This document shows, one piece after another, positions 15,252-63,452 of a stretch of 64,000 nt of DNA; the stretch's first letter is position 1, and each line of letters opens with the position of its first letter. Source of the DNA: Candidatus Methanoperedentaceae archaeon GB37 (GTDB lineage: Archaea > Halobacteriota > Methanosarcinia > Methanosarcinales > EX4572-44); assembly GCA_905171695.1 (NCBI GenBank), contig LR991653.1, positions 896,258 to 960,257 on the forward strand. The letters are read 5' to 3'. Made by a program: the position numbers and the translations under genes. The notes below the pieces were generated by a model, which saw only the letters and a program-made list of their open reading frames with translations, was not told the DNA's origin and searched no databases.

Positions 15252-17543
15252 CTATTCCCTACTCAAGATGTACATTGCTGCCAATAATCCCGCCGCCGCA
15301 AACATCGCTTCAAAGCCGGGAATTCCATTATCCTGATCTTCGGGTTCAGAAGCTGCTACGGGAGGTTCCTGTTCCACGATCAGCGTGAGCGTCTCGTACC
15401 GTGTCGGGGATTTCGGACTGCCCGTAAACTGGTAGTACACCTCGCTTTCGATCTCATGTATTCCGATCTGGTTACCCGTGAGGTGCACCTCTATTGACCG
15501 CACATTATCGCCGGATTCGATCACCTGGGTGCAGGTGTAGATTCCAGGCCCTGCTTTTGCGAATGAGCTGCTGGTAACCGAGACACCGGAGGGCGGCTTC
15601 AGGATCAACTGAACTGTCATCGGAGGGTTTCCGATTGGGTTTACTGCTGATAGTGTGAAGATCGCGTCCTCGCCTTTCTTGATCGTGGTTCTTGTGGTTC
15701 CGAAGTACACGCTGGGTCCGGTTCGCTCGACTGTTATCGGGAGTTCTTCGAAGCCTGAGTTTGATTTTGAGTCGGTTGCTTCAACCCTGATTGTGTGCTT
15801 GCCCACCGAGAGGGAATTTGTTGTTACGGTATACATTCCGGCTTGATTTCGGGATTCGAGCAACGCTTCATCGAGCAGTATTTTTATTGATGCGACTCCA
15901 CTGGGGTCACTTGCGCCGTAGGTTATTGTTACCTTTTCGCCTTCTTCGAGAAGTCCGTTGTTGTTTTGGTCGATGATGATTGGACTCTGGATAGATATTG
16001 CAGGCGGAGAGATGTCCGCGGGAGTCAGTTGTGCAGTTATCGATTCTGTAACTCCGGATGTGACATATACTGAGGTTAGCCACTCTTTGTATCCATATTT
16101 TTCTAATTTGAGTGCGTGTGAACCGGGTGAAGCGTTTGAAATCGTTGTTGGGGTCGTGCCGTGATATGTGCCATCGAAATAGACGTCTGCGCCAGATGGT
16201 GACGAATGAATAGAAAATGAACCAGTCTTTTGGGTTAATGTTGCATCTATCGATTCCGTATCTCCTGCTAACACATAGACCGTTGTTGTGTAATCCTCGT
16301 ATCCAGATTTTGTTAATTTTATCGTGTGTGAGCCGGGTGAAACGCTGATGAGTGTTTTCGGTGTAGTTCCCTTGTATGTATCATCAAGGTAGATGGTTGC
16401 ATCAAATGGGTGTGAAACGATGTGGATAGAGCCAATCGAAGATGAAAACGCATACACATAGCTTTTCGGTGAGTCTTCATCATCCATTGTGCATATGTAG
16501 AGTATGCCACCAGATATGGCAGGAGAAGAAATGGCGCAACCGTCCATTTTATATTTCCATTTTTCAGTACCTGTAGCCGCATCCAACGCATACACGTAGC
16601 CTTCAGTTGAGCCTATGTATACTGTACCTTCTGATATAGCAGGAGAAGAAATAATCGCACTGCTTGTTTTGTATTTCCATTTTTCTGTGCCTGTTATAGC
16701 ATCCAGCGCATACACATAGTTGTCGTATGAACCAATATAGACAGTATCATCAGACACAGCAGGAGAAGAGAGAACCCAACCACCTGTTTTATATTTCCAT
16801 CTCTCGGTCCCAGTTGATACATCTAATGCATATATATAATTATCCTGCGATCCTATGTAGACAATACCATCTGATACGGCAGGAGAAGAAAGCTCAACCC
16901 GATCTCCGGTCTTATATCTCCATTTCTCTGTACCAGTGACTGCGTCCAATGCATACACATAGTTATCGTATGACCCTATGTAGACTGTACCTTCTGATAC
17001 GGCAGGAGAAGAAGATACGCAACTACCCGTTTTATATTTCCATTTCTCTATACCTGTAGTTGCATCTAATGCATACACATAGCCATCACTTGAACCTACG
17101 TAAACCGTACCTTCTGACACTATCGGAGATGATTCGACTTCATTACCAGTCTCGTATTTCCATTTCTCTATACCTGTAGTTGCATCCAATGCATACACAT
17201 AGCCATCACTTGAACCTACGTAAACTATGCCACCAGATATTACAGGAGATGATGCGCCAGTGTCTATTTCGTATTTCCATTTCTCTGTGCCAGTATATGC
17301 ATCCAGCGCATAAAAATAAGCGAGTGAACCAATGTAGACGGTGTCCCCTGATGTCGCCGGAGATGCACCAAATTCGTGATCTGCTTCATATTTCCACAAC
17401 AACCCAAGCGGCGGTTCCACGCTCTCACCAGCCACACCAGTACGCTGCGGATCATGCCCGAACATAGGCCAATCTGCGGCGGCTGCGGTGCCTGATAACA
17501 GCACAAGAACCAAAAACATTAGTGCGGTTTGCCATGTGTGCAT
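15252..17543 (-). CDS. Secreted PQQ-repeat beta-propeller protein with PEGA domains and PGF-CTERM anchor
   Basis: 763 residues. Signal peptide 1-23 (LMFLVLVLLSGTAAAA), then about eight PQQ-like blades (about 30-375) of the form ALDAxTGTEKWKYKT..SSPAVSxGTVYIGS, forming a propeller; two PEGA domains (about 378-520: YLDDTYKGTTPKTL and YFDGTYHGTTPTTI); an Asp/Asn-rich Ca-type linker (IIIDQNNNGLLEEGEKV); two Ig-like domains; and the PGF-CTERM ending NGIPGFEAMFAAAGLL plus ISRE. It should be surface-anchored by archaeosortase. The blades are near-identical at DNA level (for example 17040-17110 and 17160-17230), suggesting recent blade duplication. Stop is TAG. Confidence 0.88.
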   Translation of the reverse strand: MHTWQTALMFLVLVLLSGTAAAADWPMFGHDPQRTGVAGESVEPPLGLLWKYEADHEFGASPATSGDTVYIGSLAYFYALDAYTGTEKWKYEIDTGASSPVISGGIVYVGSSDGYVYALDATTGIEKWKYETGNEVESSPIVSEGTVYVGSSDGYVYALDATTGIEKWKYKTGSCVSSSPAVSEGTVYIGSYDNYVYALDAVTGTEKWRYKTGDRVELSSPAVSDGIVYIGSQDNYIYALDVSTGTERWKYKTGGWVLSSPAVSDDTVYIGSYDNYVYALDAITGTEKWKYKTSSAIISSPAISEGTVYIGSTEGYVYALDAATGTEKWKYKMDGCAISSPAISGGILYICTMDDEDSPKSYVYAFSSSIGSIHIVSHPFDATIYLDDTYKGTTPKTLISVSPGSHTIKLTKSGYEDYTTTVYVLAGDTESIDATLTQKTGSFSIHSSPSGADVYFDGTYHGTTPTTISNASPGSHALKLEKYGYKEWLTSVYVTSGVTESITAQLTPADISPPAISIQSPIIIDQNNNGLLEEGEKVTITYGASDPSGVASIKILLDEALLESRNQAGMYTVTTNSLSVGKHTIRVEATDSKSNSGFEELPITVERTGPSVYFGTTRTTIKKGEDAIFTLSAVNPIGNPPMTVQLILKPPSGVSVTSSSFAKAGPGIYTCTQVIESGDNVRSIEVHLTGNQIGIHEIESEVYYQFTGSPKSPTRYETLTLIVEQEPPVAASEPEDQDNGIPGFEAMFAAAGLLAAMYILSRE

Positions 17544-20305: not shown

Positions 20306-23080
20306 ATGTTGCCAGAGGATGAATATAGGCTTGATTACTTTAAGGAGAATGGTTTTATCCGGAAGAGATGCATCACGTGTGGAGATTACTTCTGGACGCT
20401 GGATAGCGAGCGCTTGACGTGTGGTGATGCGCCATGTGATCCATACACATTCATAGGCTCGCCGGTCTTCAGGAAGAGGTTCTCGCTTGGTGAGATGCGC
20501 GAGAGATACCTCAGCTTCTTTGAAGAGCGGGGTCATCAGCGGGTTGATCGTTATCCGGTTGTGGCGCGCTGGCGGGATGATATCTATCTTACTATTGCAT
20601 CGATTGCTGATTTTCAGCCCTTCGTGACGTCTGGGCTTGTTCCACCACCAGCCAATCCCCTGACGATCTCTCAGCCATGTATTCGGCTCGGTGATCTTGA
20701 CGCGGTTGGTAGAAGCGGGCGGCACCTCACTCTCTTTGAGATGATGGCGCATCATGCATTCAATACGAGAGATGAAGAGATCTACTGGAAGGAGGAGACC
20801 GTTGAATCATGCGACGCTCTTCTCCACGAACTCGGCGCCGACCCAATCGAGATAACTTATAAGGAGGCGCCGTGGGCGGGTGGTGGTAATGCAGGACCCT
20901 GCCTCGAGGTCATCATAGGAGGACTTGAACTTGCTACACTCGTCTTCATGAATCTTCGCCAGAAGAGAGACGGATCGATAACTATCAAGGGCGAGAGATA
21001 CGAGGCTATGGAGAACTATATTGTGGATACAGGCTACGGGCTTGAGCGCTTTGTCTGGGCATCGAGTGGCACGCCCACGATCTATGACGCAGTCTTTCCC
21101 GGTATCGTAAGGGATCTCATGGACCTCGCAGGGATCAGAGACTCAACTGTAGAGAGTGAGTACGAGAGTATCTTTGGAGCGAGCGCCATCTTTGCAGGTA
21201 TCATGGATATAAGTGGAGAGGCAAAGCTCCTTGATCTTCGGAAGAGAGTTGCAGAAGAGATCGGTGTGACGGTTGAAGAGCTGCAATCGATAATGGAGCC
21301 TGTTGAAGCCGTATACGCTATTGCAGATCATACCAGGTGCATCACCTTCATGCTCGGTGACGGGATCATCCCGTCAAACGTCAAAGCAGGATACCTGGCG
21401 CGCCTCGTTATTCGCCGGACGATGCGACTGATGCACGAACTTGGACTCGAGACGCCTTTAGAGGATATCATCGAGATGCAGGTCAGAGACCTGACTGACT
21501 ACCCAGAGTTCAGAGAACGCTTCGAGACGATGAGCGAGATACTCGCACTTGAAGAAGAGCGATACCGGGAGACACTCAGCCGCGGCAAACAACTGATCAC
21601 AAAGATGGCACGCCACTACAAGAGAAGAGGCGAAGCCATACCACCGAGTGAACTCTTTCACCTCTACGATACCCATGGCATACCCCCGGAGATGGCAAGA
21701 GACGTGGCATCAAAGATGGGTGTCAGCGTAAGCATCCCAGACACCTTCTACTCACACGTCGCAGAACTGCACACCAAGAGCGAACCAGAAGAGACGCAAG
21801 AAAGAACCATCAATCTTGCCGGACTGCCAGCAAGTGAGAAGCTATACTATGAAAGGCCCAGAGACTCGATATTCACAGCAACCGTGCAGAGAGTGCTTGA
21901 CGAAGGAATCGTTCTTGACAGAACACTCTTCTATCCAGAAGGCGGAGGCCAACCAGCAGATCACGGCACCCTCACAATCGATAACCAGACGGTCAAGATA
22001 GTGGACGTCCAGGAAGTTAACGGTGTCATCCTGCACACACCAGAGAGAGAGCACACAATCAAAGAGGGAGAGATGGTCACTGGCGAGATAGAGATTGAAC
22101 GGCGAATGGCTCACACCCGACACCACACCGCCACACACCTCGTGAACGAAGCAGCAAAGAAAGTTCTTGGAGAGCACGTATGGCAGACCGGCGCCCAGAA
22201 GAGCAGAGAACGAGCACGCCTTGATATCACACACTACAGACGCATCACCCCTGACGAACTCAGAGAGATAGAACTCATTGCAAACCAGGAAGTAATGGCA
22301 GACCAGCCAGTCGAGACCAGATGGATGGATCGAAGAATCGCAGAACAACGATACGGGTTCACACTCTACCAAGGAGGAGTCCCACCCGGTCGCAGGATCC
22401 GAGTGGTGAAGGTCGGCGACGACGTTGAAGCCTGCGCCGGCACACACGTAGAACACACAGGCGAGATCGGCGAGATCAAGATCCTGCGAGTAGAACGCAT
22501 ACAAGACGGAGTAGAACGGATCGAATTTGCAGCAGGAGAAGCCGCAGTAATAGCCACCCAAGAGCGTGAAGAACTACTCAACAGAGCAAGCAACGCCCTC
22601 CACGTCCCACCAGAACACCTGCCAAAGACCGCACAACGATTCTTCACCGAATGGAAAGAACTCAAAAAAGAGGTCGAACGACTACAGAACGAACTTGCAG
22701 AGATCAGAGTCACAGCATACCTAAAAGAGAGCACACAGATAAAAGACATAAACGTCATAACAAAAGAGATCAAAAGAGCCAAGATCGACGAACTTATCAA
22801 AACAGCAATACAACTCGCAAAACACCCCAAAACAGTAGCAATACTTGCCGCGCAAGATAAAGGAGCCAAAATAGTAGCATCAGCAAGCAACGACACAATC
22901 AAAAGAGGAATCGACGCAGGAAAGATCATCCAACAGATAAGCCCCATCATCGGCGGAAGCGGCGGAGGAAAACCCACAATCGCACAAGGAGGCGGCAAAC
23001 ACCCAGAAAAAATAAACACCGCCCTTCACGAAAGCAAAAACATAATAGAAGAGATACTCTCACAAACCGAGAACACATAA
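20306..23080 (+). CDS. alaS: Alanyl-tRNA synthetase, archaeal type
   Basis: 924 residues. An N-terminal archaeal extension (about 1-60) with CITCGDYFWTLDSERLTCGDAPC precedes the class II core (RYLSFFEERGHQRVDRYPV; RLGDLDAVGRSGRHLTLFEMMAHHAF; PWAGGGNAGPCLEVIIGG). The editing domain has the HTATH zinc/catalytic motif (about 608-612) and the CAGTH motif (about 711-715), and the C-terminal GGSGGGKPTIAQGGGK element closes the protein. It charges tRNA-Ala and clears mischarged Ser/Gly. G:C counts on the coding strand go from 18:9 (20341-20400) to 8:18 (22801-22860). Confidence 0.97.
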   Translation: MLPEDEYRLDYFKENGFIRKRCITCGDYFWTLDSERLTCGDAPCDPYTFIGSPVFRKRFSLGEMRERYLSFFEERGHQRVDRYPVVARWRDDIYLTIASIADFQPFVTSGLVPPPANPLTISQPCIRLGDLDAVGRSGRHLTLFEMMAHHAFNTRDEEIYWKEETVESCDALLHELGADPIEITYKEAPWAGGGNAGPCLEVIIGGLELATLVFMNLRQKRDGSITIKGERYEAMENYIVDTGYGLERFVWASSGTPTIYDAVFPGIVRDLMDLAGIRDSTVESEYESIFGASAIFAGIMDISGEAKLLDLRKRVAEEIGVTVEELQSIMEPVEAVYAIADHTRCITFMLGDGIIPSNVKAGYLARLVIRRTMRLMHELGLETPLEDIIEMQVRDLTDYPEFRERFETMSEILALEEERYRETLSRGKQLITKMARHYKRRGEAIPPSELFHLYDTHGIPPEMARDVASKMGVSVSIPDTFYSHVAELHTKSEPEETQERTINLAGLPASEKLYYERPRDSIFTATVQRVLDEGIVLDRTLFYPEGGGQPADHGTLTIDNQTVKIVDVQEVNGVILHTPEREHTIKEGEMVTGEIEIERRMAHTRHHTATHLVNEAAKKVLGEHVWQTGAQKSRERARLDITHYRRITPDELREIELIANQEVMADQPVETRWMDRRIAEQRYGFTLYQGGVPPGRRIRVVKVGDDVEACAGTHVEHTGEIGEIKILRVERIQDGVERIEFAAGEAAVIATQEREELLNRASNALHVPPEHLPKTAQRFFTEWKELKKEVERLQNELAEIRVTAYLKESTQIKDINVITKEIKRAKIDELIKTAIQLAKHPKTVAILAAQDKGAKIVASASNDTIKRGIDAGKIIQQISPIIGGSGGGKPTIAQGGGKHPEKINTALHESKNIIEEILSQTENT

Positions 23081-23088
23081 CCCATGAC

Positions 23089-23495
23089 TATAGTATATCT
23101 TATTATATAGTATATCTTATTATATAGTATATCTTATTATATAGTATATCTTATTATATAGTATATCTTATTATATAGTATATCTTATTATATAGTATAT
23201 CTTATTATATAGTATATCTTATTATATAGTATATCTTATTATATAGTATATCTTATTATATAGTATATCTTATTATATAGTATATCTTATTATATAGTAT
23301 ATCTTATTATATAGTATATCTTATTATATAGTATATCTTATTATATAGTATATCTTATTATATAGTATATCTTATTATATAGTATATCTTATTATATAGT
23401 ATATCTTATTATATAGTATATCTTATTATATATAGTATATCTTATTATATAGTATATCTTATTATATAGTATATCTTATTATAGTATATCTTATA
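23089..23495. repeat. 17-bp AT-rich minisatellite, about 24 tandem copies
   Basis: The unit TATAGTATATCTTATTA repeats head to tail from just after the alaS stop, with nearly no sequence divergence. There are two phase irregularities near the right end: an extra TA at about 23430 and a shortened unit at about 23484. There are no spacers, so it is not CRISPR. The repeat contains no ORF. At 17 bp the unit is not a multiple of the helical turn; its strand-separable composition would suit an iteron or origin-type element, but there is no flanking cdc6/orc gene here. Confidence 0.9.
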
Positions 23496-23571
23496 TCTAA
23501 CAATAACCCACTTAACTAAAGTTTAGAACTTTTCTATCCACTTATCTGCAAAGCTTATTCTCTGTGTTAGC

Positions 23572-26531: not shown

Positions 26532-26588
26532 AGCAACCAATGTACACACAGGATAATAATAATCCTTCCCATCCCTGAAACAGGACCC

Positions 26589-26886
26589 GTCCACTTAACA
26601 TAAACACCACCTCAACCGATTATAATAAAGCATGAAGAGCTTACAGAACAAATTCCAGTTTTTAACAGGATTAAAAGAGATAATTTAGCAGAAGAATATC
26701 TTTATTCTCTGCTTTAGTGTTGCATGAAATCTTTTGGGTGGATTTCATGCGAGTTTCAGATTTTCAATCTGAAACAAGGAGAACGCTGATTCAACCAGGC
26801 TTCTCTCTTTGAAAGGACTGATCGCTCAAATTCCAGATCCAGGCTTTTCAGCGCATCTATAAGCGAAGGGAGTTTTATCAACGAAG
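26589..26886 (-). mobile_element. Decayed IS6-like element, 3' part only
   Basis: The right end GTCCACTTAACATAAACACC at 26589 and the following 290 bases are almost identical to 34693-34980. On the reverse strand a fragment of the DDE C-terminus is recognisable (LDLEFERSV-like, shared with 55475-55500), broken by stops. Two perfect small palindromes lie inside: TTTCAGATTTTCAATCTGAAA in three pieces around 26755, and CATGAAATC ... GATTTCATG around 26724-26750. The left end and most of the transposase are gone. Confidence 0.7.
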
Positions 26887-28680: not shown

Positions 28681-28765
28681 CTCTAACGGTTGGCGGACAT
28701 ACGAAGTTCGGCTTTGCCGAATTTGGGCGTAACTAAGCGTAGCCGTATGTCCGCTGTTATCGGAA
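28681..28765 (-). repeat. attC-like recombination site of cassette 2 (array 1)
   Basis: Read on the minus strand: R'' TTCCGATAAC (28765-28756), L'' arm GCGGACATACG, a variable part with the shared core GCCCAAATT...CCGAACTTC, L' arm CGTATGTCCGC (perfect 11-base complement of L''), then R' GTTAGAG (28687-28681). R'' is the inverse complement of the first ten bases of its own cassette (GTTATCGGAA at 29855-29846). That relationship is expected when a circular cassette with one attC integrates between G and TT. Confidence 0.75.
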
Positions 28766-28779
28766 GTTCCGCATATCAC

Positions 28780-29817
28780 CTATTTTACCTCCAGCATATC
28801 ACCATGATATCCGCATCTTTCAAGAAGTTTACGAGCGTTGGTTATGCAACTTGCGGTGCTATAATTGGTTTCAATGTATAAACCATTGGATAATCTCTTC
28901 GGTGCTCTAAAATCATCTCCATATCTATGTTTAGGTTGAATGTTTACCAAATTTCTCTTATGCCCGCTTGCGATAGGACAATTTTCCCTTCTTAATCTAC
29001 CTTTTCTGATTAACCACTCCGCAGTATTTACTAAAATGTCATACGAGTTCCTGATCTCATAGATATCAGCTCCAATCTTTATTTTTCTTGGCTGAGCACC
29101 TCTCCCTTCTGTAGGCTCTGTAATTGGGATAGGTTCTATTACAGTTTCTTCTGTAGGAGAAATGAGTTCTTTTACCCTTTCTTTTATAAAATCTTCAATT
29201 TCTGTTTGCTCAAATTCATACTCTGGATACCCTTCTTTAATTAAACTTTCAAAAACAGGGATAAATCCTTTGACCAAATCTTTTGGCTCATCTAACAATG
29301 AATGCCAAATCTCATCCAATATCTGGAGTTTCTTTATAAGCTTCTCAATGTCATCAATATTATCTTTAGAGATTGTATTTAGTTTCCTTACACTTGCCGT
29401 CAGTTCATCATTTTCAATGTCAGTTTTCCAGACGATCCTTTCAGACATTGTTGTTCCTTCTTGAAAAGCCCTAAAAAGTATCCAAATCGCACCGTTTGTT
29501 AAAACCCCATATTTCATTCCCTCACCAAAACAATATTTAGCTAATTGACGGATGACTTCTCTTTGTTCTATGTCAACTGATAACTTCTTCGCTTCAATGA
29601 ACAAAACCTTCTTGTCTCCTTTCAAAAGAGAATAATCTGGAATACCTTCCTCAGTAGAGACATTTGGCTGTACTTCCTCTGGATTCTCAGTATCCCATCC
29701 TAAGCCTCTTAAAATGGGCTCGATTATCTGGCTCCTCACAGCCATCTCATTTTGCTCATAGAGAAAGTGATGTTTCTTCATTCTCTCAATGACCATTTCC
29801 AATGTTTCCTTAAGCAT
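28780..29817 (-). CDS. Restriction-type nuclease with HSDR_N-like domain
   Basis: 345 residues from the ATG at 29817 (AAGGTGAG 4-9 bases upstream). Residues about 20-120 resemble the N-terminal PD-(D/E)XK nuclease of type I restriction HsdR: MAVRSQIIEPILRGLGWD, EGIPDYSLLKGDKKVLFIEAKK (Asp ... Glu-x-Lys), YGVLTNGAIWILF. A helical middle follows, then a C-terminal domain (FRAPKRLSNGLYIETNYS ... LLERCGY) seen in stand-alone members. No helicase part. It is the sole gene of cassette 2, oriented toward its attC. A+T-rich relative to flanks. Likely an anti-phage or type IV-like restriction protein (inference). Confidence 0.8.
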   Translation of the reverse strand: MLKETLEMVIERMKKHHFLYEQNEMAVRSQIIEPILRGLGWDTENPEEVQPNVSTEEGIPDYSLLKGDKKVLFIEAKKLSVDIEQREVIRQLAKYCFGEGMKYGVLTNGAIWILFRAFQEGTTMSERIVWKTDIENDELTASVRKLNTISKDNIDDIEKLIKKLQILDEIWHSLLDEPKDLVKGFIPVFESLIKEGYPEYEFEQTEIEDFIKERVKELISPTEETVIEPIPITEPTEGRGAQPRKIKIGADIYEIRNSYDILVNTAEWLIRKGRLRRENCPIASGHKRNLVNIQPKHRYGDDFRAPKRLSNGLYIETNYSTASCITNARKLLERCGYHGDMLEVK

Positions 29818-29848
29818 TTTTCTCACCTTCTATCTTTTGCGGGATTTC

Positions 29849-29939
29849 CGATAACGTTTGGCAAACATACGAAGTTCGGCCTTGCCGAGTTTGGGCAAAG
29901 GTGTGAAGCACTGCAGCCGTATGTCCGATGTTATACGCC
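29849..29939 (-). repeat. attC-like recombination site of cassette 1 (array 1)
   Basis: Minus strand: R'' GGCGTATAAC (29939-29930), L'' arm CGGACATACG, core GCCCAAACT...CCGAACTTC, L' arm CGTATGTTTG, R' GTTATCG (29855-29849). Starting at R'', 17 bases (GTTATACGCCGTTTCGC, 29930-29946) recur perfectly and inverted at 31537-31553, the start of cassette 1. The core is shared with the site at 28681-28765. Confidence 0.78.
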
Positions 29940-29949
29940 GTTTCGCCCA

Positions 29950-30885
29950 TCATTTATTTCTTGCAGTAAATTCAAACAGTTTAGGGGATTTATATTCTAT
30001 TAAAAATTCTCTTATTCTTTTTTCTGCCAATTTTACATATTCTTCTTCTATGTCATATCCCACATAGTGCCTTCCCGTTTTTATTGCAGCAATTGCTGTT
30101 TGACCGCTTCCCATAAAGGGATCCAAAACTACCTCACCTTGATATGTGTAAAGCTGAATCAATCTATAAGGAAGCTCAACAGGGAAAGGAGCAGGATGTC
30201 CGACTTCTTTTGCCGATACCGCTGGAAATGTCCAGACACTTTTGGTAAACTCAAGAAATTCCTCCCTTGAGATTGTGCTTCTTCTTTTATTCATATTCTT
30301 CCTTGAAAACATCCCTTTTGAGAAGACTAAAATATATTCGTGGACATCTCGTAGAGTAGGATTTGCAGGAGAAAGCCAGCTACCCCATGCTGTTGAAGGG
30401 CTTGCAGAAGATGCTTTATTCCATATAATCTCACCTCTCATCAGAAAACCTAACTCAAACATATCTTTAGCAATAAATGCATGCAAAGGAATGTAAGGCT
30501 TCCTTCCTAAATTCGCTATATTGATGCATGCTCTACCTCCAGGCACAAGAACCCTGTAGACCTCTTTCCAGACCGTTTTTAAAAACGATAAATATTCTTT
30601 CAGTGTGAAATCCTCATCATACTCTTTTCCTACATTATAGGGTGGTGAAGTTACCATTAAATGAACGCTGTTATCAGGTAACTCTTCCATTTTTTCGGAG
30701 GATTTGCAAAAGATTTTATCTAAGAACTGCGGAGGGATGGGATTCTCCACATATTTAACCTTCTCTTCCTTAGGCAGTCCTTCATATAACTTGCTTGTGT
30801 AAAAAGGCGTGGAATCATGATTTATTCTGCCAGGAGAACCAAAGGAACTTGTCTTAGTTCCCTTTTTTCTTCTGTTATCTCTCAT
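29950..30885 (-). CDS. Site-specific DNA methyltransferase (TSPPY type)
   Basis: 311 residues. Catalytic motif IV TSPPYNVGKEYDEDF (about 81-95) marks an amino-methyltransferase (N4-cytosine or N6-adenine), and the AdoMet loop VLDPFMGSGQTAIAAI (about 250-265) comes after it, i.e. the beta-type motif order. AWGSWLSPANPTLRDVHEY is a further family hallmark. It starts one base after the stop of the upstream endonuclease gene and must protect against it. Both are in cassette 1, reading toward its attC. Confidence 0.9.
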   Translation of the reverse strand: MRDNRRKKGTKTSSFGSPGRINHDSTPFYTSKLYEGLPKEEKVKYVENPIPPQFLDKIFCKSSEKMEELPDNSVHLMVTSPPYNVGKEYDEDFTLKEYLSFLKTVWKEVYRVLVPGGRACINIANLGRKPYIPLHAFIAKDMFELGFLMRGEIIWNKASSASPSTAWGSWLSPANPTLRDVHEYILVFSKGMFSRKNMNKRRSTISREEFLEFTKSVWTFPAVSAKEVGHPAPFPVELPYRLIQLYTYQGEVVLDPFMGSGQTAIAAIKTGRHYVGYDIEEEYVKLAEKRIREFLIEYKSPKLFEFTARNK

Positions 30886-30886
30886 T

Positions 30887-31399
30887 TTAATCTTCCCTCC
30901 AGTAATCTACCCATCTTTTATAGGGATTATACTCAATTTTTGTCTTCTGCCAGTTTATCTCAATAACCTTAGATAAATTATCCTTAACTAAACTTGATAA
31001 AGCTTCTTTGGTTATCTCTACACCTCTTGGATTCGTGCCTGGCTTAGGGAGTTTAATATACCTATTTCTACCTATCCTATCAAAAAGTTTCCTTTGTGCC
31101 TCCACTGGAATGTAATAAAACCCTCCTACACTTCCCCAGTTAATTTGAATTAGTATAATATCGCAATGGGGATAATAAGTTTCTCTAAACTCCTTTGCCT
31201 TTTGTGCATCAACTGTCCATATGAGTTTAACTCCGCTAAATCCTTTTCCTGTAATTGTTTTTATGGAGACAGGTTCACCAAATAATTTTACATCAACTTC
31301 TGGTTCCGTAATTGGTATTTCTGTTTCTACATTTGCCTCTCCAAATTTATAGATAAGCAAAGAGATGATAATTCTTTCACGGAGAGAACCAACTTCCAT
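30887..31399 (-). CDS. ThaI-like type II restriction endonuclease, with in-frame TAG upstream
   Basis: 170 residues from the ATG at 31399. The pattern EPEVDVKLFGEPVSIKT (PD-(D/E)XK-like Asp ... Ile-Lys), VKLIWTVDAQKAKEF, CDIILIQINWGSVGGFYYIP matches what I recall of the ThaI family, which cuts CGCG. The same frame carries family-like sequence further upstream (SKLPYLFQLAELESSRAGKIG) back to an ATG at 31519, but codon 10 from that start is TAG (31490-31492). So the full 210-residue protein needs read-through; otherwise a truncated form starts at 31399. Recognition sequence not confirmed. Confidence 0.7.
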   Translation of the reverse strand: MEVGSLRERIIISLLIYKFGEANVETEIPITEPEVDVKLFGEPVSIKTITGKGFSGVKLIWTVDAQKAKEFRETYYPHCDIILIQINWGSVGGFYYIPVEAQRKLFDRIGRNRYIKLPKPGTNPRGVEITKEALSSLVKDNLSKVIEINWQKTKIEYNPYKRWVDYWRED

Positions 31400-31532
31400 C
31401 CCGATTTTTCCTGCTCTTGAACTCTCTAGCTCTGCAAGCTGAAATAAATACGGTAATTTGCTTTTAATCCTGTTTACAAGCTTTACATCCTAAAATATTT
31501 CCATTAATCTACTTGACATCTTTTATTTCTCC

Positions 31533-32690
31533 CTAAGCGAAACGGCGTATAACTCTCGTGGAGGAAGAACTGTTGCAACTGTTTAATATGTTATTCATGT
31601 ATTCTGTGATGGTTCTCAGTCGATCGAGGACCTCCTTGCGAGTTCTGCCACGTGAAAAGAGGGTTGTAAGAGGTCTGTTCTTCGCCATCAACGTTCCCTC
31701 TCTCGAGACGTCAGAGACGATGCCCTTCTTGTAGCATTCGAAGAGCATATCTGACTTTGCTTCATCGATCCAGATATCTTGTGCTGCAAAGAGGATAGCC
31801 TTTCCAGCAAATGCCCTGGCTCTCTGTCTCTCTGGGAGTATGCCAGAGAAGGAGTCAACGTGCATTGAGAATAGATTGATACCATAGGCTTCTTCCACGG
31901 TCTCAAGGGTGCCCTGGAAGCGTGGGTTCACCTCGAGAAGGACGAGCCCGTCTCTCCCGATCAGGAAGTCAACACCGTTCGAGCCGACGAGTCCGAGGTC
32001 AGATGCAACGAGTTCGGCAAGCTCTTCCATCAAGCTCACGTGCCTCCCGAGAAATGGTGTTATGTTGCCGGTATATGCGTACGGCATCTCTGTGAGCCAT
32101 GGGAATGATATCTGCTCGCTTGCGGCGATGCTACGTGCCTCGCCGTGAGACGCGATTAGCGAGATACTCACGGTCCTGCCATCGATGTACTCCTGTACGA
32201 TGAAGTCTCGGTGCGTACTCTTTGCATCTTCAAGCTCTTCGGAGCTTCGAATGAGCAGGTTTTCAACACCGCCAGCACCACGTCTCGGCTTTGCCATCAG
32301 AGGATAGTCCAGTTCGGATGGATCAACATCCTCGATGAGGTACGTCTCTGGGTGTGGAATGTCAAGCTTCCTCAGATACTCTGCGAGCCAGAGTTTATCA
32401 GAGACTCTCTCAAAGACCTTTGTATCGTTGTTGAGCACCGGAACATCTGTCTCCAGGTCCCATGACTCAAAGCCAGGTCCACGAACGATCGTATCATACT
32501 CAAAGTCATCCATCAGCTCTCTGATCTTCTCAGGAGAGGGGTCGTCTTCTTCGAATACCGCCACGCCATCTGCGATATCGAAGAGGTCCCGGTCGCCAAA
32601 GTGTTCTATCGAGAAGACGTTGTAGCCTGCGCGTTTCGCAGAGCGACAGATATGTCTCGTGTTATACCCTATGATGAGTATATCTCTCAT
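31533..32690 (-). CDS. ATP-grasp protein (COG2232-like) with C-terminus altered by cassette insertion
   Basis: 385 residues. N-terminal Rossmann-like part (DILIIGYNTRHICRSAKRAGYNVF), then an ATP-grasp domain: YPLMAKPRRGAGGVENLLI (Lys and Gly loop), FIVQEYIDGRTVSISLIA, and VDFLIGRDGLVLLEVNPRFQGT with the Mg-binding Glu and Asn. Related to biotin-carboxylase-like carboligases; the substrate is unknown. The last residues (TRVIRRFA, then TAG) are encoded by cassette DNA, since the array starts at 31553. Overlaps the Nif3-like gene upstream by four bases (ATGA). Confidence 0.82.
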   Translation of the reverse strand: MRDILIIGYNTRHICRSAKRAGYNVFSIEHFGDRDLFDIADGVAVFEEDDPSPEKIRELMDDFEYDTIVRGPGFESWDLETDVPVLNNDTKVFERVSDKLWLAEYLRKLDIPHPETYLIEDVDPSELDYPLMAKPRRGAGGVENLLIRSSEELEDAKSTHRDFIVQEYIDGRTVSISLIASHGEARSIAASEQISFPWLTEMPYAYTGNITPFLGRHVSLMEELAELVASDLGLVGSNGVDFLIGRDGLVLLEVNPRFQGTLETVEEAYGINLFSMHVDSFSGILPERQRARAFAGKAILFAAQDIWIDEAKSDMLFECYKKGIVSDVSREGTLMAKNRPLTTLFSRGRTRKEVLDRLRTITEYMNNILNSCNSSSSTRVIRRFA

Positions 32691-34126: not shown

Positions 34127-34669
34127 GTGAAGGTTGCGTGGGGTATCACAGGCAGTGGTGATAAGATCGCCGAGACGGTTGGGCTTATGGAGCGATTGAA
34201 GGAAGAATACGGGATCGAGATCGTTCCGTATGCATCAAAGGAGGGTGAGGTAGTACTGAAGTTTTACAGGCTTTTAAAAAGGGTTAAAGAGGTTTTTCCA
34301 GGGTATAAAGTTGAGAGAAGTGCAAATGCCCCTTTTCTTGCGTCAAAACTACAGCTTGGAAAGTTTGACCTCTTTTTAATCGCGCCTGCAACCGCAAACA
34401 CCGTTGCAAAGATCGCACACGGAATCGCAGACACCCTGCTCACAAACGCCGCACTCCAGGCGATAAAGACAAGACTCCCTGTCTACATCTACCCAGTAGA
34501 CCAGGAGGTGGGAGACGTCACAACGATCCTCCCAAACGGGAGAGAGATGAGAATACACGTCCGCAAGGAGGATGTGAGGAACGTTGAGACTCTACGAGAT
34601 ATGGACGGGATAACGGTCTTGAAGAGCCTCGATGAAGTTGAAGAGATCATCAGGGGTAGAGATATATGA
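34127..34669 (+). CDS. afpA: Archaeoflavoprotein (AfpA/DmrX type)
   Basis: 180 residues from the GTG at 34127 (GGTGGTT just upstream); a TTG at 34112 is possible. HFCD flavoprotein fold: VAWGITGSGDKIAETVGLME (phosphate loop), then LFLIAPATANTVAKIAHGIADTLLTNA, the FMN-binding segment shared with flavoprotein decarboxylases such as CoaC. Family members found in methanogens and Archaeoglobus accept electrons from ferredoxin or reduce dihydromethanopterin. Which applies here is not visible. The element copy at 34692 begins 22 bases after its stop. Confidence 0.85.
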   Translation: MKVAWGITGSGDKIAETVGLMERLKEEYGIEIVPYASKEGEVVLKFYRLLKRVKEVFPGYKVERSANAPFLASKLQLGKFDLFLIAPATANTVAKIAHGIADTLLTNAALQAIKTRLPVYIYPVDQEVGDVTTILPNGREMRIHVRKEDVRNVETLRDMDGITVLKSLDEVEEIIRGRDI

Positions 34670-34691
34670 GGGAGATCACAGTTAAAGGACG

Positions 34692-35448
34692 TGTCCACTT
34701 AACATAAACCCCACCTCAACCGATCATAATAAAGCATAAAGAGCTTACAGAACAAATTCCAGTTTTTAACAGGATTAAAAGAGCTAATTGATCAAAAGAA
34801 TATCTTTATTCTCTGCTTTAGTGTTGCATGAAATCTTTTGGGTGGATTTCATGCGAGTTTCAGATTTTCAATCTGAAACAAGGAGAACACTGATTCAACC
34901 AGGCTTCTCTCTCCGAAAGGACTGATCGCTCAAATTCCAGATCCAGGCTTTTCAGTGCATCTATAAGCGAAGGGAGATTTATCAACGATGAATCCTATCT
35001 TCTTCCAACAGAACTCTTAACCTTTCTCTGAAAGACATTGTAACAGGATAATTCCTTGTTGTATACGTTCTCATCAGAATTAACTCGTTCTTCTCAACAT
35101 CTACAGCAGAATAGACATAATACGCCTTTTTATCTTGCTTTAACAACTATTTCGTATAATGCAATGCTATCAGGTATCTTCTCTTCTTCTCTGATACAAG
35201 CAGGCAATCTCTCTTCAAACATTCCCTATTTCCAAAGAGAGGTTTTAGAGACAGACCGGATGAAGCCAGAGAGAGAATTCTGGCAGTCCTCCCGAGAGAA
35301 GACGTCTGAATACAGGTTGCAACACCGGGAATCTCAACATAGAAAAGGCACCTTATTCCTCTCAAACACCCTTCAACTCTTCAACCATCCCACCTTACCC
35401 TCAGCATAAATAAAAAATAGTCTCCCGTATTTATAATCTGATGTGGAC
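34692..35448 (-). mobile_element. IS6-like insertion element, decayed, near full length
   Basis: 757 bases bounded by TGTCCACTTAACATAAAC (34692) and, reversed, GTCCACATCAGATTATAAAT (35448). On the reverse strand the transposase start is readable (PLEVKVLGIA-like helix region, then LIALHYTK, KKAYYVYSAVD-like pieces, YTTRNY-type), but stops and frameshifts interrupt it throughout. The TATTTATAATC tract near its left end resembles a TATA box for the transposase. It has cut into the small gene at 35373-35711. Confidence 0.75.
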
Positions 35449-35711
35449 GGGCCCAATCTATGCTTACCTAAACGAATAAGTGCCTGATACATTTGATTTG
35501 TAGATAGTTGTTTTGAAAGAATACCAACAAGTTTTACCTTTGGTATTTTATTGGGATTTATCTTTTTCTGTTGTGGAAAACCAAAATTTAAAGAAGGTAT
35601 CTCTATTTCAGGAACTTCAATTTTTGGAATATCAAAATCTAAATCAAAAATGTATTCTTCTCTTCTACTTTTTCTATTGGTTTTTCTTGCCTTTTTCTTG
35701 GCATGTTTCAT
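35373..35711 (-). pseudogene. Small hypothetical protein truncated by the IS6-like element
   Basis: 112 codons. The first 85 residues are native-looking: a Lys/Arg-rich start (KHAKKKARKTNRKSRREE), then an acidic/Pro repeat-like middle (FDIPKIEVPEIEIPSLNF) and SKQLSTNQMYQALIRLGKHRL. The remaining residues (from GPSTSDYKYGRLF) are encoded by the element's end, so the original C-terminus is lost. It overlaps the upstream 56-residue gene by four bases (ATGA). No family recognised. Confidence 0.5.
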
Positions 35712-54905: not shown

Positions 54906-54971
54906 ACCAATCACGATCTACCCCATACACCTCAAATGCCTTAAACACTGCCCTCCGAAGGTCTGGGACCC

Positions 54972-59180: not shown

Positions 59181-59324
59181 ATGCAGATGATTAATGGGAT
59201 CTGCAACATCTGCGGCAGGGCTGGAGTGCTTCACACCTGTCCTCTATGCGGAAGGATGGTCTGTGACAGGTGTCTTCTGCGAGGAGTGTGCGTTGAATGC
59301 AGCAGAGGCAGAATGATAAGATAA
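59181..59324 (+). CDS. 47-residue double zinc-knuckle protein
   Basis: ATG at 59181, TAA at 59322-59324. CNICGRAGVLHTCPLCGRMV, then CDRCLLRGVCVECSRG: eight Cys in four CxxC-like pairs plus one His within 47 residues, a B-box/treble-clef-like pattern. Likely a zinc-binding small protein; partner unknown. It lies just left of the second cassette array (first cassette base 59357). Confidence 0.6.
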   Translation: MQMINGICNICGRAGVLHTCPLCGRMVCDRCLLRGVCVECSRGRMIR

Positions 59325-59452
59325 ACCATAAGATAAACCATACCTATCATCGGTTCGTTATATGACATTCCGCCCCTTCGCATCATAACATTTTTATACT
59401 ACAATTTCTTTAATGTAAGATAAGTAAGAATAATCTTTCAAACTGGTGGACA

Positions 59453-59713
59453 ATGAAAGGCAGATGCACAAAAATGAGAATCGTATATGGCGTTGTTACG
59501 GTGAGCGATAAAGGTCAGATTGCCATTCCTGTAGATCTAAGGAAAGATTTGGGAATAAATCAAGGAGATAAACTATTTGTCGTCAAGAGAAAGGATGACG
59601 CAGGATTTGCATTAATAAAACTTGAAAAAATCGATGAGTTGATGTACAAACTCCAAGAAGATGAAGAATTTTTTCAAAAAATGAAAGGAGGTGATAATAA
59701 TGCCGACCTGTAA
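59453..59713 (+). CDS. AbrB/SpoVT-type DNA-binding protein
   Basis: 86 residues. GVVTVSDKGQIAIPVDLRKDLGINQGDKLFV (read in two parts: VTVSDKGQIAIP and DLRKDLGINQGDKL) is the swapped-hairpin AbrB domain, and the tail is a short acidic helix. It is likely the local repressor of the cassette genes or an antitoxin, though no toxin is adjacent. ATG start with GGTGG upstream; it overlaps the next small gene by 14 bases. Confidence 0.85.
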   Translation: MKGRCTKMRIVYGVVTVSDKGQIAIPVDLRKDLGINQGDKLFVVKRKDDAGFALIKLEKIDELMYKLQEDEEFFQKMKGGDNNADL

Positions 59714-59828
59714 GGACTGCAAGTTTTATGAGCCGATAGATGAGACAAAGGGCAACTGCTTTGGGCATGAAGTGCTTGCGGACATGGATGTAGAAAAATG
59801 TCCGCAAAAGGCATTTCAGCCAAAGTAG
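59700..59828 (+). CDS. 42-residue Cys-rich peptide
   Basis: ATG at 59700 with a very strong GGAGGTGAT just upstream; TAG at 59826-59828. MPTCKDCKFYEPIDETKG, then NCFGHEV and KCPQKAFQPK: four Cys (CxxC, C, C) resembling the small iron-sulfur subunits that accompany some glycyl-radical decarboxylases and benzylsuccinate-type synthases. No such large subunit is nearby. It sits in cassette A upstream of a radical SAM gene. Confidence 0.75.
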   Translation: MPTCKDCKFYEPIDETKGNCFGHEVLADMDVEKCPQKAFQPK

Positions 59829-59888
59829 GGAGCGAGATATGGGACTTTTGTCCCATTTTTATTAAAAATGAAAAATGGAGGTTAAAAG

Positions 59889-60404
59889 ATGGCAACAATA
59901 AAAGATATACTCAAATCAAAGAAAAAGCCAAAGGAAATTGTTGAACTTTTGGCTGAAAAATTAAAAAGTGATAAGAAAGCGATTGATGAACTTATTCAAT
60001 GTTTTGAAAATGGTACTACTGCTGAAAAAGGTAACTGCATGGAAGCGATAGAATATGTTACCAAAGAAAGTCCAGAATTTGCCGAAGATTGCCTTGATTT
60101 CGTTATCGAGCATATCAATGATAAAGCTCCGAGGGTGAAATGGGAAACTTGCAGGGTAATAGGCAATGTTGCCCAAAAATTTCCAGATAAAGTTAAAAAA
60201 GCCATCCCAAAGCTCTTGGAAAACACAAAAGATAAAGGAACAGTTGTAAGATGGAGTGCCGCTTTTGCTTTGACCGAGATTGCAAAAAGTAACCCGGAAA
60301 TGCAAGAAGAACTTGTTCCTGAATTTAAGAAAATACTGGAAAGGGAAAATAACAAGGGAGTGAAAAATATTTACATGAAATATCTTAAAGGTGCAGGACT
60401 ATGA
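59889..60404 (+). CDS. HEAT-repeat protein 1
   Basis: 171 residues of helical repeats: VKWETCRVIGNVAQKFPDKV and VVRWSAAFALTEIAKSNPEM are typical HEAT helices; the N-terminus (IKDILKSKKKPKEIVELLAE) starts a first repeat. No signal or TM. GAGGT precedes the ATG; the stop overlaps the second HEAT gene by four bases (ATGA). Scaffold or nucleic-acid-binding role possible. Confidence 0.8.
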   Translation: MATIKDILKSKKKPKEIVELLAEKLKSDKKAIDELIQCFENGTTAEKGNCMEAIEYVTKESPEFAEDCLDFVIEHINDKAPRVKWETCRVIGNVAQKFPDKVKKAIPKLLENTKDKGTVVRWSAAFALTEIAKSNPEMQEELVPEFKKILERENNKGVKNIYMKYLKGAGL

Positions 60405-60886
60405 TAGATGATGTTAGGGATATAATTGAAAGAGGAATCCATTCTTTGCATGATGCTCTTCCTGAAATAAGGAAACTTGCATCCAGTGATGATTGGAGAA
60501 AACGGGAAGATGCAGCTACTGCACTGGTAGAGATCAGCAAAAAGAGGGAAGATGAAGTTGTAAGTGAGATGACAATATGGTCAGATGAGAAGGACCCCAA
60601 TATTCGTAGAGTCTCAAGTGAAGGATTGAGAGGCGTAGCGAGAAGGAATCCAGAGAAGATTTTACCAGTAATTGAAAAACTGAAAACTGACGATAGCCTT
60701 TATGTCAGAAAGTCCGTTGCTGCTCTTCTTAGGGCGATAAGCAAGAAAAATCCTGAATTTGTGGTGGATTTATGCAGAAAATGGGCAAAGCTGGAAAATA
60801 AAAATACTAACTGGATAATGAGACAGGGCATAAAGAAACTGCCAGAGGAGCAACAGGAAGAATTAAAATCTTTATTAGGTGAATAA
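60401..60886 (+). CDS. HEAT-repeat protein 2 (DNA alkylation-repair-like)
   Basis: 161 residues: WRKREDAATALVEISKKRED, PNIRRVSSEGLRGVARRNPE, YVRKSVAALLRAISKKNPEF and WIMRQGIKKLPEE are consecutive HEAT repeats of the sort found in AlkD-like DNA glycosylases, though the catalytic residues cannot be assigned. It is coupled to HEAT protein 1 at its start, and the radical SAM gene begins one base after its stop, so three genes form one operon. Confidence 0.78.
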   Translation: MIDDVRDIIERGIHSLHDALPEIRKLASSDDWRKREDAATALVEISKKREDEVVSEMTIWSDEKDPNIRRVSSEGLRGVARRNPEKILPVIEKLKTDDSLYVRKSVAALLRAISKKNPEFVVDLCRKWAKLENKNTNWIMRQGIKKLPEEQQEELKSLLGE

Positions 60887-60887
60887 A

Positions 60888-61775
60888 ATGGTAAATGAAA
60901 TCAAGGTTAAATCGATACTGAACAAACACAAAAAGAGAGATGATTGGTTTCTTGATGACTATTCTGTAAATCCTTACTCCGGTTGTTCTTTTAATTGTAT
61001 TTACTGCTACATAAGAGGAAGTAAATATGGAGAAAATATGGTAAAGACTTTATCGGCAAAAATAAACGCCCCGGAACTTCTGGAAAAACAGCTTTCAAGA
61101 AGAGCAAAGAGAGGAGAATATGGAATTATTGCACTCTCATCTTCAACGGAGCCCTACATGCCAATTGAAGAAAAACTGAAGTTGACAAGAAAATTGCTTG
61201 AGATAATTCTGAAGTATAGATTTCCTGTTGAAATTGCTACTAAATCAAAACTTGTTTTGAGAGATTTGGATTTATTAAAAGAGATTGATAAGAATGCAAT
61301 TTTGCCAGATGATTTGGAACCTAAACTGAAACACGGAGTAATTATCTCCTTTTCCATCTCAACTCTGGACGAGAAATTGGCTAAAATTCTTGAACCGGGA
61401 GCTCCTAAACCTATAGAGAGATTGGAAGCGATGAAAAGATGTAAAGAGAGGGGATTTTTTACTGGAATATGTTTTATTCCTGTTTTGCCGTTTTTATCAG
61501 ATTCTGAGGAACAAGTTGAGGAAACGATAAAAACTGTGAAGGAATATGGAGCAGATTTTATTTTTATTGGTGGCTTAACTTTATTTGGTAAAGGTCCAGC
61601 AGATTGTAAGGCTCTTTATTACAAATTTTTGGAAAAATGTCATCCTGATCTTGTGCCAAAATATAAGAGTTTATACAGAATCTTTTTTGCACCATCAAAA
61701 GAATATCAAAAAGAGCTTGAAGAAAAATCAAGGAGGTTGTGTGAGAAATATGGAATCAAGAATAGGATTATCTAA
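60888..61775 (+). CDS. Radical SAM protein, SplB-like (COG1533)
   Basis: 295 residues from the ATG at 60888 (a GTG at 60879 lies earlier). YSVNPYSGCSFNCIYCYIRG carries the CxxxCxxC iron-sulfur motif (about 31-38). Then IIALSSSTEPYMPIEEKLKLTR, PVEIATKSKLVLRDLDLL, VIISFSISTLDEKLAKILEP and GFFTGICFIPVLPFLSD follow the COG1533 spore-photoproduct-lyase-like family. Substrate unknown. It ends cassette A, 57 bases before its attC-like site. Confidence 0.87.
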   Translation: MVNEIKVKSILNKHKKRDDWFLDDYSVNPYSGCSFNCIYCYIRGSKYGENMVKTLSAKINAPELLEKQLSRRAKRGEYGIIALSSSTEPYMPIEEKLKLTRKLLEIILKYRFPVEIATKSKLVLRDLDLLKEIDKNAILPDDLEPKLKHGVIISFSISTLDEKLAKILEPGAPKPIERLEAMKRCKERGFFTGICFIPVLPFLSDSEEQVEETIKTVKEYGADFIFIGGLTLFGKGPADCKALYYKFLEKCHPDLVPKYKSLYRIFFAPSKEYQKELEEKSRRLCEKYGIKNRII

Positions 61776-61832
61776 TGGTGGCTTCGGGACGGAACGCTTC
61801 GTCGCTCCGCTCCTCGCCCTCACTCCGTTCGG

Positions 61833-61915
61833 GTCATATAACACGGGCTATATGGCTCACTTTGTTCGCCCAAATTCCCCTTCGGGGAACTTCAGATACG
61901 CTCGGAACGTTATCT
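61833..61915 (+). repeat. attC-like site of cassette A (array 2)
   Basis: R'' GTCATATAAC (61833-61842), arm ACGGGCTATATG, core GCCCAAATT CCCC TTC GGGG AACTTC, arm AGATACGCTCGG, R' GTTATCT (61909-61915). The 10-base R'' is the exact inverse complement of the cassette start at 59357-59366. The inner CCCC/GGGG stem and AACTTC are shared in form with the other sites. Confidence 0.72.
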
Positions 61916-61970: not shown

Positions 61971-63452
61971 ATGGAAAAAGAGATTGTAGATATTATCCTT
62001 GCAATAGTTCAGATAGGAACGCTAATTGCTTTGATCATATATGTAATAAAAACATGGCAGATTGCTTCTGCCTCAAAGAAATCAACAGAGGTATCGGAAG
62101 AGATTCTTAAGGAAATGAAAGAATCTCGAGACCAAGAGATTGCACCATATGTAGTTGCCTACTTTGATATTCCTTATGGCAAGTATTGGATATATCTTGT
62201 TATAAAGAATGTAGGCAAAAGTGTTGCAAAGAATGTCAAGTTGGAATTTCAACCTCCACTTAAGAACAGCGAGGGAGAAAAGATAAATGATATACCTCTC
62301 ATAAAGGAAGGAATTGGCTCAATACCTCCAGGGTATGAAATACGAACCTTTTTTGATAGCGGAATTTCCTATTTCAACAAAAGTAACTTACCTTTAACTT
62401 ACAAGGTGAAAATTTCCTATTCTGGAGGATTACGATCAGATACAAGAAATATAGAACAAATAATGGATTTATCTGCATTCAAAGGTTTATCTTTTCTAGA
62501 TGAGAAAGGGATGCATGAACTTGTAAAGGAAGTTGAAAAGTTAGTTAAACACAATGACAATATAAGGCAGAAGTTGGAGAAAGTGGCAAATAACTTAGCT
62601 GATGGTGTTTGGCTCAAGAACCCAGACTTTTTGATAACTGGTTTACAGTTAGAACCAGAGTTATGGAACTCAGGCGCATTGACAAAACTAATTGAATTTA
62701 AGACACTATGGACGTCGGTTTACGGTGGGGAACACGAAAAACTTGTAGATCCATTTCTTGCAGATTTGAAAAACAAATCTGTCATCATTGGCTCGCAGCT
62801 TCTTATTATTGCTTCCAGTGCTTCTTCTAACGTTCCATCTGAACTAGTGGATCGTTTAGTCGAAATCGCAGTTAAATTGTCCGAATTAGGAAGAGCACGT
62901 TTTTACATTGATGGAGGAAAATTAGTTAATGATTTTGATAAACTTGGAAATTGCATTATAACTCTTATAGATGAAACCATCGAACAGATCAAAGTACAAA
63001 GCGCGCCACTTCAGCTAACAGCAGATAAAAGGCTTCGCTACGCTTCGCCCAAAATTGCCTTTGGCAACTTCTTTTACCCGCAAAACGTTAAGCTAAATTT
63101 TCTCTTCGAGAAAACTACGCTCGCAGTGGATTTTCGGCGGCTCAAAAACTCTCCGTTCGCTTCGGTGCTATCGCCCTCGGAGAACAAAAGGATACGTGGC
63201 TCGCTCACGTTCGCCCAAATTGCGCTTTACGGCGAAACTTCACATATCCCCAGAACGTTACCTGAACACCCTGAGATTCTCCGTCCACCCCTTACAACTT
63301 GTCCCCTACATCTTTTATATCACTTTCTCAAGCGTCATATCAAACATTTTCTTTGTCTCACGTGCCAAGCCTTCTGGAAGTCCTTTTATGTCGAGGCTGA
63401 GAAATCCTCGTATGATCATGCCGATTGCTTCGTCTTCAGAGAATCCTCTTGA
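61971..63452 (+). CDS. Membrane-anchored protein of unknown function; ORF runs through two attC-like sites
   Basis: One N-terminal helix (about 4-27, DIILAIVQIGTLIALIIYVI), then a coiled linker and a beta-rich domain (about 60-160: YWIYLVIKNVGKSVAKNVKL, YKVKISYSGGLRSD) followed by a helical region to about residue 348. The protein-like part ends near 63005; the frame then stays open through the attC-like sites at 63006 and 63179 and on opposite the sufD gene, stopping only at 63450-63452. Its true 3' end was probably lost or is unterminated. No family recognised. A+T-rich. Confidence 0.65.
   Translation: MEKEIVDIILAIVQIGTLIALIIYVIKTWQIASASKKSTEVSEEILKEMKESRDQEIAPYVVAYFDIPYGKYWIYLVIKNVGKSVAKNVKLEFQPPLKNSEGEKINDIPLIKEGIGSIPPGYEIRTFFDSGISYFNKSNLPLTYKVKISYSGGLRSDTRNIEQIMDLSAFKGLSFLDEKGMHELVKEVEKLVKHNDNIRQKLEKVANNLADGVWLKNPDFLITGLQLEPELWNSGALTKLIEFKTLWTSVYGGEHEKLVDPFLADLKNKSVIIGSQLLIIASSASSNVPSELVDRLVEIAVKLSELGRARFYIDGGKLVNDFDKLGNCIITLIDETIEQIKVQSAPLQLTADKRLRYASPKIAFGNFFYPQNVKLNFLFEKTTLAVDFRRLKNSPFASVLSPSENKRIRGSLTFAQIALYGETSHIPRTLPEHPEILRPPLTTCPLHLLYHFLKRHIKHFLCLTCQAFWKSFYVEAEKSSYDHADCFVFRESS
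63006..63093 (+). repeat. attC-like site of cassette B (array 2)
   Basis: R'' CCACTTCAGCTAAC (63006-63019), arm AGATAAAAG, core GCCCAAAATT GCC TTT GGC AACTTC, arm CTTTTACC, R' GTTAAGC (63087-63093). It is 12 of 14 complementary to the cassette B start. Arms pair with one wobble. Confidence 0.68.
63179..63263 (+). repeat. attC-like site at the right end of array 2
   Basis: GGAGAAC (63179-63185), arm GGATACGTG (63190-63198), core GCCCAAATT GCG CTTTA CGGC GAAACTTC, arm CACATATCC (63241-63249; one wobble), R' GTTACCT (63257-63263). The R'' box is not complementary to the segment start at 63087, so a deletion or composite event is likely. GC-rich TTCGCTTCGG tracts at about 63150 may be the debris of another site. 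Confidence 0.55.

Follow-up and report, generated by a model that had tools for sequence, protein, structure and literature searches.

Integron-like gene cassettes in a Methanoperedentaceae chromosome and a candidate clade of integrases lacking the I2 domain

A window of 64,000 nucleotides from the chromosome of Candidatus Methanoperedentaceae archaeon GB37 (assembly GCA_905171695.1, contig LR991653.1, positions 896,258 to 960,257) contains two consecutive minus-strand gene cassettes at window positions 28681 to 31553, here termed array 1. Array 1 is very probably a pair of integron cassettes situated away from any attI and moved by a tyrosine recombinase encoded about 190 kb away, which belongs to a clade lacking the additional domain (I2) specific to the integron integrase IntI. 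It is one of about 29 dispersed groups of cassette sites in the genome and is not an integron itself. On a lesser but still favourable balance of evidence, integrases of this type, which lack I2 and are the nearest to IntI, drive a second class of integron that is spread over Archaea and Bacteria, including Bacteroidota and Bacillota.

The cassettes of array 1 and their attC family

The initial annotation described two minus-strand cassettes, each ending in a folded attC-like site and beginning with the inverse complement of its own R'' box, with genes read towards the attC. All of these features are present, although the site at 29849-29936 folds only in the form that it takes in a circular cassette. 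In minus sense, the array runs from an ATP-grasp gene through G^TT at 31553/31552, a ThaI-type enzyme and its methyltransferase, the attC at 29849-29936, G^TT at 29855/29854, an HSDR_N protein, the attC at 28681-28762 and G^TT at 28687/28686 to purP. Its features, with the evidence for each, are as follows.

31537..31553, minus strand: start of cassette 1, with the insertion point G^TT at 31553/31552 and no attI-like inverted repeats upstream
29855..31552, minus strand: gene cassette 1, 1698 bp, from the TT after G at 31553 to the G at 29855, with a ThaI-type restriction-modification pair; GTT start and R'' complementarity of 17/17
30887..31399, minus strand: ThaI restriction endonuclease open reading frame (ORF), profile positions 34-203; Pfam PF15514, E=2.8e-82
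29950..30885, minus strand: N6/N4 DNA methyltransferase, type II; Pfam PF01555, E=6.8e-52; PADLOC MTase_II, E=7.8e-145
29930..29946, minus strand: extended R'' arm of cassette 1, exact inverse complement of the cassette start at 31537-31553
29849..29936, minus strand: attC of cassette 1 (R''-L''-two hairpins-L'-R'); match of 92.1 bits to covariance model R1 (site used in building the model); covariation over 110 distinct sites
28687..29854, minus strand: gene cassette 2, 1168 bp, with an HSDR_N-domain protein; GTT start and R'' complementarity of 10/10
28780..29826, minus strand: HSDR_N-domain protein with an N terminus like those of type I/IIG restriction enzymes; Pfam PF04313, E=3.7e-10; PADLOC REase_MTase_IIG, E=1.5e-9
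28681..28762, minus strand: attC of cassette 2; R1 match of 93.4 bits (site used in building the model); folds as DNA, z = -3.0/-3.9

Cassette 1 starts with GTTATACGCCGTTTCGC at 31553, as read directly from the sequence, and its R'' extension GCGAAACGGCGTATAAC (29946-29930) matches the inverse complement of this start at every base. Cassette 2 starts with GTTATCGGAA at 29855, the inverse complement of 28765-28756. Common to the two attCs are a long arm, GCCCAAA at the centre and a small hairpin ahead of ACTTC. Compared with shuffled sequences, the attC at 28681-28762 yields the two z-scores given above for its two strands, whereas the linear form of 29849-29936 folds no better than the shuffles (z = -1.0 / -0.4). 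The ThaI reading frame extends upstream to an ATG and contains, in a read-through translation, an in-frame TAG at about 31490-31492, near codon 10; the ORF could be interrupted, or could begin further in. Pyrrolysine was considered as the reason for this TAG and ruled out, as no PylS scores above the cut-off in the genome.

The attC covariance search of the assembly advised in the initial annotation was carried out with R1, a model built from five sites of the GB37 genome only. In the single-contig genome of 1,922,745 bp, R1 finds 40 sites at E<0.01, the five used for building and the rest independent, at about 29 places with one to four sites each. Matching sites are present in 43 of 100 relatives and in all five compared genomes of the same family. 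A cassette start that matches R'' over at least 9 bases, GTT included, lies upstream of about 16 of 42 sites, against 1 in the downstream control, so that such matches exceed chance; where an array holds several sites, the match coincides exactly with the GTT of the previous attC. Over a set of 110 distinct sites, drawn from this genome and from others, 93.1% of pair cells are paired and 520 double changes occur; shuffles give 180 +/- 10, and sliding the structure leaves no more than 102. These figures lean towards the model because the alignment was fitted to it. The sites have the R''/L''/L'/R' fold with an AAC..GTT core by which integron attCs are recognised, the AAC being present in 37 of 41 genome sites and a strict RYYYAAC in 18.

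Cargo genes are oriented in the attC sense, and their ends usually lie no more than about 60 nt from R''. Recognised products include the restriction enzymes ThaI, MvaI/BcnI and CfrBI, a peroxidase, an Rce1-like protease, a GmrSD-like protein, STAND-like NTPases and a HEPN protein, and several cargo genes have no family. One attC-like site, at C1:1050.9-1051.6 kb (L009:1752-2470), is seemingly split by an insertion sequence (CTAACGCTTGGAC ... GTCCTTGTCCGGTTATGG). With two sites 1168 bp apart and the integrase about 190 kb away, array 1 corresponds to a cluster of attC sites lacking an integron integrase (CALIN), defined as at least two attCs spaced by less than 4 kb and no nearby integrase.

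The perfect 17-bp inverted repeat around the ThaI restriction-modification genes could suggest a transposon or a miniature inverted-repeat transposable element with these arms as its terminal inverted repeats. However, the conserved hairpin lies outside the 17-bp repeat, the arms vary between cassettes while the hairpin is common to them, and the cassettes chain end to start at GTT. The unit carries no transposase and its outer junctions no target duplication, none having been seen among about 29 loci. This explanation, which the initial annotation had named among the findings that would overturn its reading, is thus highly improbable. Bacterial contamination of the assembly might be suspected since most relatives of the integrase described below are bacterial, but the sequence is a single 1.92-Mb contig with archaeal genes on both sides, there are about 29 separate insertion places, and matching sites recur in all five compared genomes of the family. 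Contamination is therefore barely conceivable, and the genes flanking array 1, namely purP (DUF1246/DUF1297), ATP-grasp, NIF3 and aRF1, are archaeal in type, in agreement with the initial annotation.

The integrase, its attI and its relatives

A search of the genome for integron integrases returned two loci and two small fragments. The first locus, C1:1118625-1119764, encodes a tyrosine recombinase of 380 residues with an HTH_17 domain, a second small domain, a SAM-like domain and a catalytic domain (Pfam PF00589, E=4e-45). Directly after it come two inverted repeats (ATATCCGAAC..GTTCGGATAT) that form an attI, then GAATGA^GTT, a cassette with a 405-residue ORF, and an attC. At C1:696 kb, the region after an integrase copy with 64% identity contains, in order, G^TT, a small cassette and an attC. 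A third platform resembling an attI stands upstream of the site at C1:106287. No attI was found ahead of array 1, array 2 (described below) and several other groups. The integrase is thus adjoined by an attI at whose G^TT cassettes enter, the arrangement expected of an integron, and together with the genome-wide sites this unit supports the initial view that integron-type cassettes are the best reading of array 1.

Relatives of GB37 show exchange at an attI. In three genomes of the same family, G002, G003 and G005, one locus holds a 3' fragment of the integrase and an attI that is the same in all three, followed by three different first cassettes joined exactly after GATATACCTGAG; judged by eye, their genes look SIR2-like, TIR-like and of an unnamed type. 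Three different first cassettes at a single attI provide comparative evidence that G^TT is a live insertion point. The integrase 3' fragments at L124:5176 and L129:9953 (G002), L125:4615 (G005) and L126:3207 (G003) all start at about the same codon, Leu286, and each is followed by attI; the break may itself be a product of recombination at TGG^TTA.

The recombinase possesses intact catalytic residues but lacks I2. Positions 180-233 of TIGR02249 are unmatched, and the score is 214.7 against a cut-off of 265 bits. The distance from KGxKDR to HxxRH is 59 residues in the GB37 recombinase and 58-63 across its clade, compared with 100 in IntI1. XerC/XerD have 62-66, and the majority of the archaeal XerA-like proteins in the comparison have 59. 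The predicted structure (mean predicted local distance difference test score, 81.9; predicted template modelling score, 0.59) shows no helix in the span from residue 280 to 298, and its confidence is low near the catalytic tyrosine (341-359). Ranked by E-value, it is matched best by IntI4 (2a3v) and almost as well by XerA (5hxy). The catalytic K, H, R, H and Y are present in 30 of 30 sequences and the first R in 29, as expected of an integron tyrosine recombinase. The proposal that intI might be found elsewhere in the genome is therefore borne out in that an integrase with attI, cassette and attC exists, but this integrase is not IntI by definition, because the I2 insert is missing.

Relatives of the integrase with 37-87% identity occur in Spirochaetota, Nitrospirota, Nitrospinota, Atribacterota, Aminicenantota, Bacillota, Bacteroidota and others, and, among archaea, in Altarchaeota, Micrarchaeota, Hydrothermarchaeota and Undinarchaeota. 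These proteins often possess an extra N-terminal region resembling a DNA-binding domain. A tree built from 53 proteins supports the clade (100/96) and places it beside canonical IntI (95/83), apart from XerA-like and XerC/D proteins; the tree is midpoint-rooted with long branches, and loss of I2 and its primary absence are not separated by it. Many clade loci share the same attI plan, with G^TT after the integrase stop codon, and R1 finds attCs in at least 14 of them. Both attI and attC are linked to clade integrases in Spirochaetota, Nitrospirota, Altarchaeota, Micrarchaeota, Atribacterota and others.

Because R1 does not match the attCs of Bacteroidetes and class 1 integrons, the sites of the clade were also examined by a model-free search for chains of cassettes after attI, which misses some true arrays (L011 and array 2 were not recovered). 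At least one cassette follows attI in 36 of 60 clade loci and at least two in 12, the longest chains being of seven cassettes in Flavobacterium terrisoli (L212) and four in Paenibacillus solani (L195). In a reversed-sequence control the corresponding counts are 6/60 and 0/60, and for related recombinases outside the clade they are 7/88 and 0/88, with 0/14 among archaeal relatives and 7/74 among viral contigs. A viral contig, IMGVR_UViG_3300000568_000548 (L230), carries a clade integrase with four chained cassettes.

The hairpins could alternatively be immobile transcription terminators or structured RNA elements after defence genes, given that they fold well and lie just after genes. This would leave unexplained the complementarity between cassette start and R'', the chaining at G^TT, the series of attI sites and the linkage to the integrase clade, and so has very little probability.

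Several observations weigh against the assignment of array 1 to an I2-less integron system. The integrase copy at 696 kb is truncated, and in several relatives all that is left of the gene is 3' fragments. R1 has no match in class 1 integron attCs, Bacteroidetes attCs or the Chryseobacterium locus. Relatives of the ATP-grasp and purP genes were used to look in related genomes for a precise empty site of array 1, which would have strengthened the initial annotation, and none was found; the neighbouring genes are rearranged, and no compared relative keeps the same neighbours. A candidate excision that would restore the stop codon of the ATP-grasp gene failed on reading frame. Lastly, a canonical IntI is encoded on one transposase-rich contig of the relative G002, and although none was found in the 1.92-Mb GB37 genome, an estimated completeness of 94% leaves room for one.

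This last point, along with the fact that CALINs are the commonest archaeal form (PMC9668308), suggests an alternative in which array 1 is an ordinary archaeal CALIN, recombined in trans by a canonical I2-bearing IntI, with the I2-less recombinase as a bystander. However, attI and cassettes follow an I2-less integrase in more than half of the chain-tested clade loci, across many phyla, and no IntI-like ORF with I2-length spacing is found among the ORFs of these loci, whereas recombinases outside the clade yield nothing among archaeal relatives and only single matches in viral contigs. Recombination in trans by a canonical IntI is therefore unlikely, and movement by the I2-less recombinase is preferred.

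Under the preferred reading, cassettes would move as circles closed at G^TT, in which R'' and R' would pair over 10-17 bp, and the 1118-kb recombinase would join the folded attC to attI, to another attC or to a secondary G^TT site. From the sequence we infer recombination itself, with the folded bottom strand as its probable substrate and the 1118-kb enzyme as the probable mover of array 1. Array 1, array 2 and the other groups without attI most likely entered at secondary, attG-like G^TT sites.

Array 2 and other repeats of the window

A second array lies on the plus strand near the end of the window.

59357..61909, plus strand: first cassette of array 2, with G^TT at 59357 and several ORFs; R''/start match of 10 nt, length 2479 to the R1 match
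60879-61775: radical SAM protein in the first cassette of array 2; Pfam PF04055
61836..61915, plus strand: attC; R1 48.7 bits, outside the model build
63013..63093, plus strand: attC; R1 77.3 bits, site in the model build
63179..63263, plus strand: attC with a decayed R''; R1 34.1 bits, outside the model build

An ORF of 493 residues at 61971-63452 crosses two of these attCs, which suggests that a cassette end has been fused or has decayed. In a same-genus relative, no attC-like site lies beside sufB, and the intergenic DNA there is too diverged for the junction to be placed. An inverted repeat at 59205-59238 was rejected as an attC, as it falls within a small zinc-finger gene and was judged to be due to chance.

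Three further repeats were noted in the window. Related copies or fragments of one insertion sequence, with the common end GTCCACTTAACATAAAC, are present at 2691-2949, 26557-26875, 34661-35454 and 54966-55664. A 17-base unit in about 30 tandem copies, many of them identical, occupies 23004-23562 directly after an ORF of 924 residues, and 120-base coding repeats lie at 16429-17366 within a minus-strand ORF of 763 residues.

Comparison with known systems

Integrons have been reported from 75 archaeal metagenome-assembled genomes, with IntIs that possess the additional domain (Ghaly et al. 2022, PMC9668308), as the initial annotation had noted in general terms, and what is new here is therefore the integrase clade, along with the dispersed layout of the cassette groups. 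The archaeal integrons and CALINs of that study resemble the GB37 system in their folded-attC cassettes, their defence and restriction-methylation cargo and the many groups without an adjacent integrase. They differ in that their IntIs carry the IntI-specific domain, which the linked GB37 integrase lacks; integrases not spanning this domain were dropped from their phylogeny. The GB37 sites are, moreover, scattered over a single-contig chromosome, and the attI has two inverted-repeat sites. In a search of the open literature, preprints excluded, no description of integrons driven by I2-less integrases was found, nor anything relevant on integrons in Methanoperedens, Altiarchaeum and Flavobacterium.

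Entry of cassettes at dispersed chromosomal positions outside attI and attC, termed attG, is attributed to Loot et al. 2024 in a later article (PMC12444791). As described there, attG insertion was shown with cassette libraries in E. coli, whereas in GB37 it is deduced from sequence only.

XerA-type archaeal recombinases (NF040815; PDB 5hxy, 4a8e) share with the GB37 enzyme their fold and inter-motif length, and the enzyme exceeds the NCBIfam cut-off for XerA_Arch (242 versus 220 bits). On the tree, the clade neighbours IntI and is separate from XerA-like proteins of the same archaeal order, whose loci have no attI-cassette chains (0/14). A XerA chromosome-dimer resolvase is a single-copy housekeeping recombinase that acts at dif; the GB37 enzyme, which scores as XerA_Arch, lies beside an attI and its cassettes and groups with the clade linked to such cassettes.

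Large groups such as Bacteroidetes are apparently devoid of integrons (PMC9024848). Detection that depends on an I2 profile would overlook I2-less integrons, which would bear on this apparent absence; canonical integrons are rare or absent in Bacteroidota and Bacillota, to which the proposed I2-less class would extend. Because restriction and other defence genes abound in the cargo, the system may represent a defence-gene store common to both domains.

Canonical bacterial integrons (IntI1, VchIntIA; PDB 2a3v) likewise possess a tyrosine recombinase beside attI, a G^TT crossover, R''/R' around a folded attC, and cassettes read one way. In contrast, the GB37-type integrase lacks the I2 insert and has an N-terminal HTH_17 and a second small domain, the R''/R' pairing extends to 10-17 bp, and attI consists of one or two palindromic repeats. 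According to work on IntI1, cassette capture requires the I2 helix, which was also the innovation behind the change from a double-strand recombinase to an integron integrase; the authors regret that intermediates are lacking (PMC7790495). If the second class is real, cassette capture at a folded attC would not need I2 and may predate it, and a natural clade beside IntI whose members lack I2 and are associated with attI and chains of attC cassettes would provide the missing comparison directly.

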